This document shows positions 27,013 to 48,417 of a DNA stretch of 64,000 nt, piece by piece (the first letter of the stretch is position 1; every line of letters begins with the position of its first letter). The notes beneath the pieces are model-generated. The model searched no databases. It was not told where the DNA came from and saw only the letters and a list, made by a program, of their open reading frames with translations. The DNA is from Rhodococcus sp. Z13 (GTDB lineage: Bacteria; Actinomycetota; Actinomycetes; Mycobacteriales; Mycobacteriaceae). The stretch covers positions 3,156,668-3,220,667 of the forward strand of contig NZ_CP107551.1 of assembly GCF_025837095.1 (NCBI RefSeq), in the 5' to 3' direction. A program made the translations under genes and the position numbers.

Positions 27013-28293
27013 TCAGTTACCGTTCGCCGTGCGCACGACACCGGGCGGGTTCGTGCCGAAGATTCCCGAACCGTCGAGCATCGGGCCGATCCAGTCCACC
27101 GACCGTCCCTGAAAGTCGTTGATGGCGTGGGTCTGCGTGGCCATCAGGTCGGTGAGGTACCGGCCGAAGGGGTGCTTGTTGTAGATACCGGTACCACCGG
27201 CGACGCGGTAGAGCTCGGTGCCGTAGCGGGCCGCCCGCGCCGGGATGTACGCCGACTGGAAACGGAACTCCTCCAAGCGTTCCGGGCTCACCTTGTTGCC
27301 ACCGGCCGCCTCGGCGATCACCGCGCCGTAGTTCGCGTACAACCGGCCCTTGGCCTCGCTGACGAACGAGTACGCCTCGGCCAGGGCCAACGAGACCGCC
27401 GGGTTCACGCCCTTGCGGCCCTTGGCGCGGATGAAGTCGACCAGTGCGTCGGCCATGCCCTTGAGCGCACCGAGCGCGGTGGGGGCCTGGGTGGCACGCG
27501 AGAACACCTGGAAGAAGGGCAGTTCGAACAGCAGGCCGGTGTTCAGCGCCAGGCCCGGAGCGGTCCGGTCGTGCACCTCGTTCCAGGTCAGGCTGCGGTG
27601 GTCCGGGACGAAGGCGTCCTCGACGATGATGTCGTTGCTGCCGGTCGCGCGCAGACCCGACACGTCCCAGTTGTGGACGATCTCGTAGTCCTCGCGCGGC
27701 AGCAGCAGCACGTGGCTGCCGACGGGGCCGGGCCCGGGGGTGGGTTCGCCCTCGATGTTGGCGCCGAGCAGGGCCCAGTCGCAGTAGTCGCTGCCCGAGG
27801 AGAACGACCAGCGGCCCGACAGTCGGAAGCCGCCCTCGACGCGCTTGGCGATCTGCGGCGCGTACGGCGAGCTCACCAGGGTCTTCGGGTTCGACGACCA
27901 CACCTCGGCCTGGGCGCGCTCGTCGAAGAAGCCGAGGTGGAAGTGGTGGATGCCCACCACGCCGAGCACCCAGCCGACGGAGGGATCACCCTCGGCGAGG
28001 ATCGAGGTCACCTCGAACGACTCGATCGGCGAGAGCTCGTGGCCGCCGAAGGCCCGCGGCTGCAGCATCTGGAAGAAGCCGGCCCGCTGCAGATCGTCGA
28101 TCGTCTCGGGGAGAATCCGGTCGTGCTGTGCCTGTCGTGCTGCACGCTCCTTGAGCGTCGGGACGAGGTCCCGGGCGCGCTGAACCATCAGCGAGGAGCT
28201 GAAGTCCCCCACCAGAAACGGGGTGATCTGGGAGATCATGGCGTCGTCCTGGTCCTGTCCGCCGCGGAGGGGGGCGAGAACGGTCTCGGTCAT
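27013..28293 (-). CDS. flavin-dependent monooxygenase, HsaA/HpaH-C2-like oxygenase component
   Basis: 426 residues with an acyl-CoA dehydrogenase-like fold: RILPETIDDLQRAGFFQMLQPRAFGGHE, GDPSVGWVLGVVGIHHFHLG, RWSFSSGSDYCDWALLG and SEAKGRLYANYG. This is the group D two-component monooxygenase family that hydroxylates phenols using reduced flavin (HsaA for 3-HSA, C2 for 4-hydroxyphenylacetate). It needs a separate flavin reductase; the best candidate is the gene at 39234 on the other strand. Start at 28293 follows GAAAGGA. Last gene of the minus-strand unit starting at 31937. Exact substrate unknown. Confidence 0.8.
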   Translation of the reverse strand: MTETVLAPLRGGQDQDDAMISQITPFLVGDFSSSLMVQRARDLVPTLKERAARQAQHDRILPETIDDLQRAGFFQMLQPRAFGGHELSPIESFEVTSILAEGDPSVGWVLGVVGIHHFHLGFFDERAQAEVWSSNPKTLVSSPYAPQIAKRVEGGFRLSGRWSFSSGSDYCDWALLGANIEGEPTPGPGPVGSHVLLLPREDYEIVHNWDVSGLRATGSNDIIVEDAFVPDHRSLTWNEVHDRTAPGLALNTGLLFELPFFQVFSRATQAPTALGALKGMADALVDFIRAKGRKGVNPAVSLALAEAYSFVSEAKGRLYANYGAVIAEAAGGNKVSPERLEEFRFQSAYIPARAARYGTELYRVAGGTGIYNKHPFGRYLTDLMATQTHAINDFQGRSVDWIGPMLDGSGIFGTNPPGVVRTANGN

Positions 28294-28357
28294 GGCTCGT
28301 TCCTTTCTTTCATCGGCCGGCGGCCGGGCGGTGCTGCCGCCGGGCACGATGGCGTGG

Positions 28358-45763: not shown

Positions 45764-48417
45764 GCACCGACAGGACCGACCCGTTCGGGTCGCTGCGGAC
45801 ACTGCCGGTCGAGGACGCGACCGGCGCCCCGCTGTACTACCACAGCCTGGCCGAGGCCGAGGCGGGCGGCGCGGGACCGATCGCCGACCTGCCCTGGTCG
45901 CTGCGGACGCTCGCCGAAGGGGTCCTGCGTCACCAGGGACACCCGCAGGCGACGCCCGAGCACGTCCGGGCCATCACCCGGCGCGACACGTCCGCCGCGA
46001 TCCCGTTCTTCCCCGGCCGGGTGCTGTTCCAGGACGCCTCCGGCATCCCCGTGCTGGCCGACATGATCACCCTCCTCGAGCGGGCCCGGGCCGAAGGCCT
46101 GGACACCGCCGCGCTCGAGCCGGCGCTGCCCCTCGACCTCGTCGTGGACCACGCCCTCGAGGTCGACGAGTACGGCAGTTCCGTTGCGGCCGAGAAGAAC
46201 ATCGATCTGGAGTACGCGCGGCACCGGGATCGCTACCGGTTCCTGCGCTGGGCCCAGGACCGCCTGCCCGGCCTACGGGTGGTGCCGCCCGGCACCGGCA
46301 TCTGCCACCAGCTCAACCTCGAGGTGCTCGCCCCCGTGGTGACCACCGTCGAATCCGGTGACCGTCACGTCGCCGCCCTCGACATGCTGGTCGGCACCGA
46401 CTCGCACACCACCATGATCAACGCCCTGGGCGTGACCGGCTGGGGTGTCGGCGGCATCGAGGCCACCGCGGCCGCGCTGGGCCAGGCCGTCATGATCCGC
46501 GTCCCCCGCGTCGTCGGCGTCGAGCTCACCGGACGGCTCGCACCGGGGGTGTTCGCCTCCGATCTGGCACTGACCCTCGCCGAGAAGCTGCGCGCCCTGA
46601 ACGTCGTCGGCGCCGTCGTCGAGTTCTACGGCCCCGGCCTGTCGGCGCTGTCGGTGCCCGACCGCGCGACCGTCGCCAACATGGCCCCCGAGTACGGGGC
46701 GACCATGGCCTGGTTCCCCGCCGACCGCCGGACCATCGCCTACCTGGCCGCCACGGGCCGCTCCCCCGAGCGCGTCCACCTGGCCGAGCAGTACCTGAAG
46801 GCGCAGGGCCTGTTCCACACCGAGGACAGCCCCGCCCCCCGGTTCGAGACCACGCTGTCGCTCGATCTGGGCAGAATCGCGACCACCCTCGCGGGCCCGT
46901 CCCGGCCGCACGACGCGCTGACGTTGTCCGAGGTGCCCACCTCCGCGGGCGAGAACGCCTCCGGCACCGGTGATTCCGCGTCGCCGAAGGACGGTGACAT
47001 CGCGATCGCCGCCATCACCAGCTGCACCAACACCTCGAATCCGCGTTCCCTCGTGGCGGCGGGTCTGCTGGCACGCAACGCGGTCGCGGCCGGACTGCGG
47101 CCCCCGGCGTGGACGAAGACCTCGTTCACCCCCGGTTCGCGGGCCGCGGCGGACCTGCTGGCCTCCGCGGGACTGCAGGAACACCTGGACCGGCTCGGTT
47201 TCCAGGTCGCGGGTTTCGGATGCGGAACGTGCATGGGCAATTCCGGGCCGCTCGGCCCGGTGCCGGCCGCCTCCGACCGGACCGAGGGCACGGCCCTGGC
47301 GGCGGTGCTGTCCGGCAACCGCAACTTCACCGGCCGCATCCACCCGGCGGTGGCGCACGCCTACCTCGCCTCACCCGCGATGGTCGTGGCGTACGCGCTG
47401 GCCGGGAACGTCCGTGTGGACCTGACGAACGACCCCGTCGGGCACCGTGAGGACGGCACGGCCGTCACCCTTGCCGATCTGTGGCCGTCCGACGAGGAGA
47501 TCGACGCGCTGCTCGCCGAGCACGAGTCCGCCGCCCTCGGCCGCGGTGCGCAACGGGAGCTGACCACCGCCCGCTGGCAGGAACTCGAGTACCCGCGCGG
47601 GGAGCACTACCAGTGGGACGGGGAGTCCGGCAGCATCCGGCGTCCCCCGTTCACCGATCCCGAGCTGACCTCGCCCACCCTCACCGGCGACCTGACCGCC
47701 CGACCCCTGCTGGTCCTCGGGGACGCGGTGACCACCGACCACATCTCGCCGGTGGCGCGGGTGCTCCCCGACTCCGCCGCGGGCCGGTGGCTGCGCGAGC
47801 GCGGTGTCGACGAGCGGTCGCTGGGCACCTTCAGCTCCCGTCGTCTCAACCACGACGTGATGATCCGGGGCGGCTTCGCCAACACCCGGCTCGTCAACCT
47901 GCTGGTGCCCGAGAAGCAGGGCGGCTGGACCCGCACCGCCCCCGGCACGGAACCGGTGCCCGTGCACGAGGCCGCCGAATACCACCGCAGCCAGGGCACC
48001 CCGGTCGTGGTGGTCGCCGGCGAACTCTACGGCGCCGGATCGGCACGCGACTGGGCCGCGAAGGTGACCCGCCTGCTCGGCATCCGTGCGGTCCTCGCCC
48101 GGAGCTTCGAACGCATCCACCGCACCAATCTGGTTGCAATGGGCGTACTTCCGATCCAGTGGGAGGGTCCCGCTCCCGAAAGCTTCGACGGCAGCGAGGA
48201 GATCGATCTGCTCGGCCTGTCGGAGCTCGGCTCCACCACCGAGATCACCGTCCGTGTCCGCCGCAACGGCGAGATCCTGTGGAAGGACACGGCGACCTGC
48301 CGCATCGACACTCCCCTGGAATGGGAGTGGCTGCGCGCGGGGGGACTGTTCGGCCACCTGCTCACCCAGCAGGCGAACCGGCAACGTGCGACGACGGAGC
48401 GGAACCCGCTCGGCTAG
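45760..48417 (+). CDS. aconitase-family hydratase (AcnA type)
   Basis: 885 residues with GTG start. [4Fe-4S] ligands Cys422 (AITSCTNTSNP), Cys488 and Cys491 (GFGCGTCMGNSGPL). DLVVDHALEVDEYGS, VPPGTGICHQ, LVGTDSHTTMINALGV and the swivel-domain GAGSARDWAAKV and RSFERIHRTNL are standard for AcnA. Cotranscribed with iclR, a CoA-transferase and a citryl-CoA-lyase-like gene rather than standing alone like housekeeping acnA, so it is probably dedicated to a citrate-like pathway intermediate, although citrate itself is possible. Confidence 0.92.
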   Translation: MSTDRTDPFGSLRTLPVEDATGAPLYYHSLAEAEAGGAGPIADLPWSLRTLAEGVLRHQGHPQATPEHVRAITRRDTSAAIPFFPGRVLFQDASGIPVLADMITLLERARAEGLDTAALEPALPLDLVVDHALEVDEYGSSVAAEKNIDLEYARHRDRYRFLRWAQDRLPGLRVVPPGTGICHQLNLEVLAPVVTTVESGDRHVAALDMLVGTDSHTTMINALGVTGWGVGGIEATAAALGQAVMIRVPRVVGVELTGRLAPGVFASDLALTLAEKLRALNVVGAVVEFYGPGLSALSVPDRATVANMAPEYGATMAWFPADRRTIAYLAATGRSPERVHLAEQYLKAQGLFHTEDSPAPRFETTLSLDLGRIATTLAGPSRPHDALTLSEVPTSAGENASGTGDSASPKDGDIAIAAITSCTNTSNPRSLVAAGLLARNAVAAGLRPPAWTKTSFTPGSRAAADLLASAGLQEHLDRLGFQVAGFGCGTCMGNSGPLGPVPAASDRTEGTALAAVLSGNRNFTGRIHPAVAHAYLASPAMVVAYALAGNVRVDLTNDPVGHREDGTAVTLADLWPSDEEIDALLAEHESAALGRGAQRELTTARWQELEYPRGEHYQWDGESGSIRRPPFTDPELTSPTLTGDLTARPLLVLGDAVTTDHISPVARVLPDSAAGRWLRERGVDERSLGTFSSRRLNHDVMIRGGFANTRLVNLLVPEKQGGWTRTAPGTEPVPVHEAAEYHRSQGTPVVVVAGELYGAGSARDWAAKVTRLLGIRAVLARSFERIHRTNLVAMGVLPIQWEGPAPESFDGSEEIDLLGLSELGSTTEITVRVRRNGEILWKDTATCRIDTPLEWEWLRAGGLFGHLLTQQANRQRATTERNPLG

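Follow-up and report, generated by a model that had tools for sequence, protein, structure and literature searches.

A conserved Rhodococcus gene cluster that combines a PcaGH-like intradiol dioxygenase with aconitase- and citryl-CoA-lyase-like proteins

Intradiol fission of aromatic rings is tied in textbooks to lactonization and the β-ketoadipate pathway. 3-Carboxymuconate is a didehydro-homoaconitate, and a tricarboxylic product of ring fission is a plausible substrate for an aconitase-type enzyme. Here we analyzed a 64,000-nucleotide stretch of Rhodococcus sp. Z13 (contig NZ_CP107551.1, positions 3,156,668 to 3,220,667; hereafter the window, whose numbering is used unless a genome position is given), part of a complete genome of 4,532,339 bases, in which a catabolic cluster of approximately 19 genes occupies positions 27013-48417. 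Pfam and NCBIfam searches recognized a cytochrome P450 system, an HsaAB-like flavin monooxygenase, a PcaGH-like intradiol dioxygenase, two class III CoA-transferases (CaiB1 and CaiB2), two citrate-synthase-fold proteins (CCL1 and CCL2), AcnA- and MmgE/PrpD-like proteins, and every other gene type named in the original prediction, which was made from the sequence without database searches. A 2Fe-2S ferredoxin (approximately 35106-35429, + strand; PF00111, 42.1 bits) was added to that inventory. The gene content, co-conservation, and residue changes reported below are direct observations, and the cluster may encode a degradation route not yet described; the titles and abstract openings of the open-access papers searched contained no description of this gene set.

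The PcaH-like subunit of the dioxygenase (hereafter PcaH; 36664-37449, +) served as the anchor for finding related clusters, and 18 genes were sought in each genome. At E <= 1e-50, 27 PcaH relatives were found among 151; those of the window and of the congener G007 (89% identity) were close, and the remaining 25 were at most 50% identical. This PcaH was present (E <= 1e-70) in 2 of 18 congeners, and it was also found in 2 of 392 Streptomyces-like genomes (the genus of G430), G659 and G648, with 97% identity to a PcaH named Streptomyces (P0002) for one copy and 94% for the other. All 18 genes were detected in G007, in the same order as in the window and with 74-94% identity, and likewise in both G659 and G648, where they formed a single run of approximately 22 kb with 63-86% identity (83-84% for HsaA); in G659, a ferredoxin open reading frame (ORF) scoring 42.5 bits against PF00111 lay between the P450 and reductase genes. 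In the Streptomyces-like order, AcnA, CCL2, CaiB2, IclR, MHS2, and MmgE stand beside the HsaA operon rather than beside HsaB. Both the ring-oxidation half and the citrate-type half were thus present in 4/4 genomes found with this PcaH, across a block rearrangement, which supports the original proposal in so far as it joins ring oxidation to citrate-like enzymes in a single conserved unit. All four copies share the same departures from the usual residues: PcaH has Ser for Tyr, PcaG has Leu, AcnA has GSARD, MmgE has Asp/Val/Gln, the crotonase has Gly, and CCL1 has Phe/Thr. The recurrence of 18/18 genes in three other genomes exceeds chance. Since the halves are still adjacent after rearrangement in two distant genera, we argue for a joint function, and the high identity between the genera suggests horizontal transfer. 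In both Streptomyces-like clusters, MmgE and HsaA are separated by an additional MarR-like gene (L277:9173-9772 and L281:11014-11613).

A scan of named genomes with the PcaH alignment gave at least 596 relatives, of which the best 80 were 39-54% identical; the rest of the cluster was not seen near any of these 80. One of the 80, in a Rhodobacteraceae metagenome-assembled genome (MAG; L110), had a CCL2 relative (51%) approximately 10 kb from its PcaGH pair. On MAG contigs of Rubrobacter-type and other actinobacteria (L057, L049, and L105), PcaGH relatives were accompanied by a P450 36-39% like that of the window.

We regard it as an even question whether the approximately 19 genes form one catabolic pathway that starts from a substituted aromatic acid, though not from protocatechuate; its substrate, all of its chemistry, and the order of its steps are what we infer. 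In such a pathway, the two metabolite/H+ symporters (MHS1, 32183-33526, -; MHS2, 41384-42715, -; 366.1 and 380.6 bits against TIGR00883, below its cut-off of 443) would import the aromatic acid. The P450 (33845-35128, +, start inferred; PF00067), the ferredoxin, and the ferredoxin reductase (35435-36667, +, start approximate; PF07992 and PF14759), together with the HsaAB-like monooxygenase (oxygenase component HsaA, 27013-28293, -, start inferred, PF08028; flavin reductase HsaB, 39234-39749, +, PF01613), would convert it to a catechol. Intradiol fission by the PcaGH-like enzyme would then give a muconate with at least one extra acid group, a homologue of aconitate or homoaconitate; with a third carboxylate the muconate would be a homoaconitate analogue, and its hydration would yield a homocitrate analogue. 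The divergent AcnA (45760-48417, +) and the MmgE/PrpD-family protein (39954-41324, -, start approximate) may add or shift water to form a citrate-type tertiary alcohol. CoA would be loaded by the CaiB enzymes (CaiB1, 30735-31937, -; CaiB2, 43638-44840, +, start inferred; PF02515, 396.6 and 399.6 bits) or by the AMP-binding acyl-CoA synthetase (28358-29968, -; PF00501, 239.9 bits), and CCL2 (44837-45763, +) would split the citryl-CoA analogue into acetyl-CoA and a 2-oxo acid. CCL1 (29965-30738, -), the crotonase (37994-38779, +; PF00378, 169.9 bits), and the 4HBT-type thioesterase (38785-39237, +, start inferred; PF13279) may act on another CoA intermediate.

The iron-ligand positions Y97, Y136, H151, and H153 of the PcaH-like subunit, which we take to be those of 2pcd, were invariant in 37/37 aligned sequences; P0036, P0039, and lower matches were excluded from this alignment. 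The pocket, however, has Ser at the Tyr24 position. The subunit belongs to a separate clade (n = 37), in which 21 members have Ser and 16 have Tyr, and among the next-ranked relatives (P0042-P0120) Tyr was found in all 75 rows with a letter at this position (4 of the 79 were gapped). The PcaG-like subunit (37461-37961, +) is the weakest family assignment in the cluster (Pfam, 16.3 bits against a cut-off of 27.3); it has Leu at what we presume to be the Tyr16 position and keeps the Arg133 position. Both subunits scored below the NCBIfam equivalog cut-offs (243 of 296 bits for TIGR02422 and 107.8 of 126 bits for TIGR02423). A canonical pcaGH pair was found at genome positions 1820584-1821818 (343.5 of 296.4 and 246.9 of 126.25 bits) and pcaB at genome position 4253824 (365.8 of 355.75 bits), approximately 1.05 Mb from the cluster. 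The original prediction had also stated that the cluster lacks pcaB, pcaC, pcaD, pcaI, pcaJ, and pcaF; none was found among the cluster proteins scanned, and the genome-wide search did not cover pcaC, pcaD, pcaIJ, or pcaF. Because pcaGH above the cut-offs and pcaB are present elsewhere in the genome, protocatechuate is probably not the substrate. 3-Carboxymuconate, the PcaGH product cited in the same prediction, is unlikely to arise from protocatechuate as an intermediate here, because the pocket Tyr is lost and canonical pcaGH and pcaB are kept. Ordinary pca genes were likewise rejected as the identity of the cluster on account of the sub-cut-off scores, the lost Tyr, and the bona fide genes elsewhere. 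The canonical pcaGH pair (L130) adjoins pcaQ, has rnc and mutM as neighbors, and is distant from pcaB.

The two citrate-synthase-fold proteins, both taken for citryl-CoA-lyase-like in the original prediction, proved to be different. CCL2 (NCBIfam PRK06224.1-1, 408 bits; cut-off, 261) has the full His-His-Asp triad and also the Arg position of the fold, so the description suits it. CCL1 also passed its NCBIfam cut-off (PF00285; PRK06224.1-5, 292.5 bits; cut-off, 193), but alignment with citryl-CoA lyase 6hxp placed Phe at the first catalytic His (H274) and Thr at the catalytic Asp (D375), in what we take to be the equivalent numbering of pig citrate synthase. Phe plus Thr occurred in 120/120 listed CCL1 proteins, the best 120 of 2,972 and including that of the window; CCL1 and its relatives have F, L, or Y at the H274 position and T or A at the D375 position. 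Counting one row per place, His plus Asp was found in 0 of 31 CCL1-type places versus 31 of 31 CCL2-type places, the four clusters being in both counts. The H238, H320, R329, and R401 positions are kept in CCL1, with the residues on the oxo-acid side retained. Having lost the acid/base pair of the fold, CCL1 would be expected to perform different chemistry; it is a distinct family by its residues rather than a plain citryl-CoA lyase, and the name "citryl-CoA lyase" for this family is doubtful. The differing catalytic residues ruled out CCL1 and CCL2 as redundant copies.

CCL1 relatives (E <= 1e-30) were found in 49 of 394 genomes of the class, including the window. A CaiB1-like best match lay close to CCL1 in 15 of the 20 class loci read, and PcaH in 0. 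Further relatives were located in CoA-type catabolic clusters on plasmids, and the closest named protein was from Rhodococcus (88%). A CCL1 named Arthrobacter (P0125) was not found in 324 genomes from the family to which G224 belongs, a search with no positive control. The ligase/CCL1 and CCL1/CaiB1 junctions are 4-base gene overlaps, with HsaA in the same run. These overlaps and the plasmid clusters would suit two halves working in series, in which CoA-ester chemistry in the first half (ligase or CaiB1, crotonase, and CCL1) releases acetyl-CoA and leaves a tricarboxylic or oxo-acid remnant for the second half to consume. We judge this decidedly unlikely: CCL1 is without its H274 and D375 equivalents, Gly occupies one of the two crotonase positions that we presume to hold the usual catalytic Glu residues, and these losses make a plain hydratase-lyase sequence doubtful.

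The surroundings of CCL2 were read across no more than 20 kb, reaching approximately 10 kb at most on each side. At E <= 1e-60, 19 of the 394 genomes of the class encoded CCL2, the window among them. CaiB2 adjoined CCL2 in 16 of the other 18 class loci, and TctA-group and TctC-group genes were present in 10 and 9 of them (one representative of each group was identified); MmgE and this PcaGH were found in none of the 18, although a 33% match to PcaH lay at the edge of one locus. Among the 18 congeners, 3 had CCL2; in one of them, G009, which has no PcaH of this type, IclR-CaiB2-CCL2-AcnA is accompanied by an MHS carrier, an aldehyde dehydrogenase, and an FAD-binding protein. When the class loci were combined with G009 and eight plasmid loci of named bacteria, CaiB lay within 3 kb of CCL2 in 25 of the 27, and AcnA was found in 4 (G009, Rhodococcus koreensis, C. 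necator, and Agrobacterium); MmgE was found in 0 of 27, versus all four joint clusters, and the 33% match was the sole PcaH among the 27. The R. koreensis, Azospirillum, and Agrobacterium loci encode TcuA-like proteins scoring 350-357 bits against a cut-off of 369, and annotated tripartite tricarboxylate transporter genes adjoin CaiB and CCL2 in Ruegeria. The CCL2 module therefore usually operates apart from ring cleavage and elsewhere probably acts on tricarboxylates, so that the cluster would have recruited a version of it; the CCL2 relative near PcaGH in L110 is a single instance to the contrary (1 of 80). On the R. koreensis plasmid (L224), the AcnA-CCL2-CaiB2-IclR module adjoins P450 genes and, from the translations, apparent extradiol meta-cleavage genes, so that its ring-cleavage partner there differs from that in the cluster.

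The same data bear on another reading, in which an aromatic-acid pathway and a tricarboxylate-use pathway are merely neighbors carried on one island. It would account for the 18 class loci and G009 with CCL2 and its usual companions but not this PcaH, and for the 15 of 20 class loci with CCL1 and a CaiB1-like neighbor and without PcaH; a DDE transposase gene (PF13701) at 25437-26831, just beyond the left edge of the cluster, fits it as well. We nevertheless hold two separate pathways to be unlikely, though still worth considering, since in 4/4 genomes with this PcaH both halves survived the rearrangement, and MmgE was seen in the joint form only. The expected co-occurrence was thus borne out in part: the halves go together wherever this PcaH was found, whereas CCL2 and CaiB are separate from this ring-cleavage set in the 27 other loci, among them G009, which goes halfway toward the separate occurrence named in the original prediction as its refutation.

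The AcnA-like protein scored 1016.8 bits against NCBIfam PRK12881 (cut-off, 905) and 930.9 bits against TIGR01341, 14 bits under the equivalog cut-off of 945. It has the SCTNTSNP, GCGTC, GSAR, and SGNRNF motifs, and the three FeS cysteines, the general-base Ser, and the substrate Arg are present. The retained serine is the general base in mitochondrial aconitase (PMC8184944). GSARDWAA replaces GSSRDWAA, Ala standing for the Ser after the base, in 8/8 CCL2-linked AcnA proteins (window, G007, G009, R. koreensis, C. necator, Agrobacterium, G659, and G648). Both other AcnA proteins of this genome have GSSRD, as do 28 of the 29 best other class matches. The exception, G430, has GSARD, and CCL2 was near none of the 6 class AcnA genes checked, G430 included, so the change is not exclusive to CCL2-linked AcnA. 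The MmgE protein (PF03972, 139.5 bits; PF19305, 66.1 bits) had no NCBIfam match at 1e-20. In a weak alignment with IDS-epimerase 2hp3 (E 1.9e-19), compared by eye, the His, Lys, and His that we assume to be active-site residues were replaced with Asp, Val, and Gln, the same in 4/4 copies.

These deviant positions might also be explained if an aryl group replaces one arm of citrate. Plants contain such aryl-citrate and aryl-malate compounds, examples being eucomic, piscidic, and fukiic acids. In that event CaiB, CCL2, AcnA, and MmgE would first cleave the side chain of a citrate or malate analogue bearing an aryl substituent, releasing acetyl-CoA and an aryl-oxo acid, and the oxygenases would then act on the freed ring; the tricarboxylate carriers adjoining related modules would agree with this order. 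We consider this proposal highly unlikely.

For the single pathway with ring fission first, the kept iron ligands of the dioxygenase and the triad of CCL2 were counted in favor. Four points weigh against it: CCL1 is without two catalytic residues, the host genome already holds pcaGH and pcaB, the ring-cleavage set is absent around CCL2 and CaiB in the 27 other loci, and the four copies of the cluster, two per genus, are few and non-independent. The route bypassing β-ketoadipate by hydration, CoA transfer, and cleavage, as originally proposed, fits the CCL2 triad but not CCL1 as a plain lyase. Our revised version, in which the intradiol product is not lactonized but hydrated as an aconitate homologue by a specialized aconitase and the MmgE/PrpD protein, then loaded with CoA and cleaved by a citryl-CoA lyase, the CCL1 family assisting with different chemistry, remains tentative, with a probability somewhat below even.

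The genes lie in five same-strand blocks (27013-31937, -; 32183-33526, -, MHS1; 33767-39749, +; 39954-42715, -; and 42742-48417, +), which fit the five transcription units predicted earlier; the last opens with an IclR-family regulator (42742-43638, +; PF01614 and PF09339). The best solved relatives of the P450 were the bacterial P450s 5xjn and 5gwe, and those of CaiB1 were CaiB/BaiF, YfdE, formyl-CoA transferases, and succinate-hydroxymethylglutarate CoA-transferase. The flavin reductase of the window has 171 residues versus ORFs of 397 (G659) and 387 (G648), and the frame in G007 likewise continues well past the end of the window copy; the Pfam match is confined to the reductase domain.

If the proposed pathway is correct, it would be an additional lower pathway for aromatics that pairs intradiol fission with aconitase and citryl-CoA-lyase chemistry, and it would give a role to a divergent group of aconitase and MmgE/PrpD proteins. 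It would also suggest that a large CCL1-type family named citryl-CoA lyase cannot use the usual mechanism. The cluster is known from two cultivable genera.

Compared with described systems, the cluster shares the two-subunit intradiol dioxygenase and the four iron-ligand positions with the protocatechuate branch of the β-ketoadipate pathway, and differs from it in the absence of pcaB-F, the sub-cut-off PcaGH-like scores, and the missing pocket Tyr. The oxygenase plus flavin reductase architecture is that of the HsaAB/p-hydroxyphenylacetate hydroxylase family, whereas the pair scored 277 and 167 bits against the HsaA and HsaB equivalog cut-offs of 450 and 230. Relative to citryl-CoA lyase 6hxp and the citrate synthase fold, CCL2 retains the catalytic positions and CCL1 deviates at H274 and D375. 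Unlike the tricarballylate or citrate use modules of the TcuA-like or TctABC-like type, whose loci were read without MmgE and ring-cleavage genes, the cluster has no TcuA, aldehyde dehydrogenase, or TctA/C among its scanned proteins; its IclR-CaiB2-CCL2(-AcnA) segment is nevertheless homologous to, and mostly collinear with, those modules.

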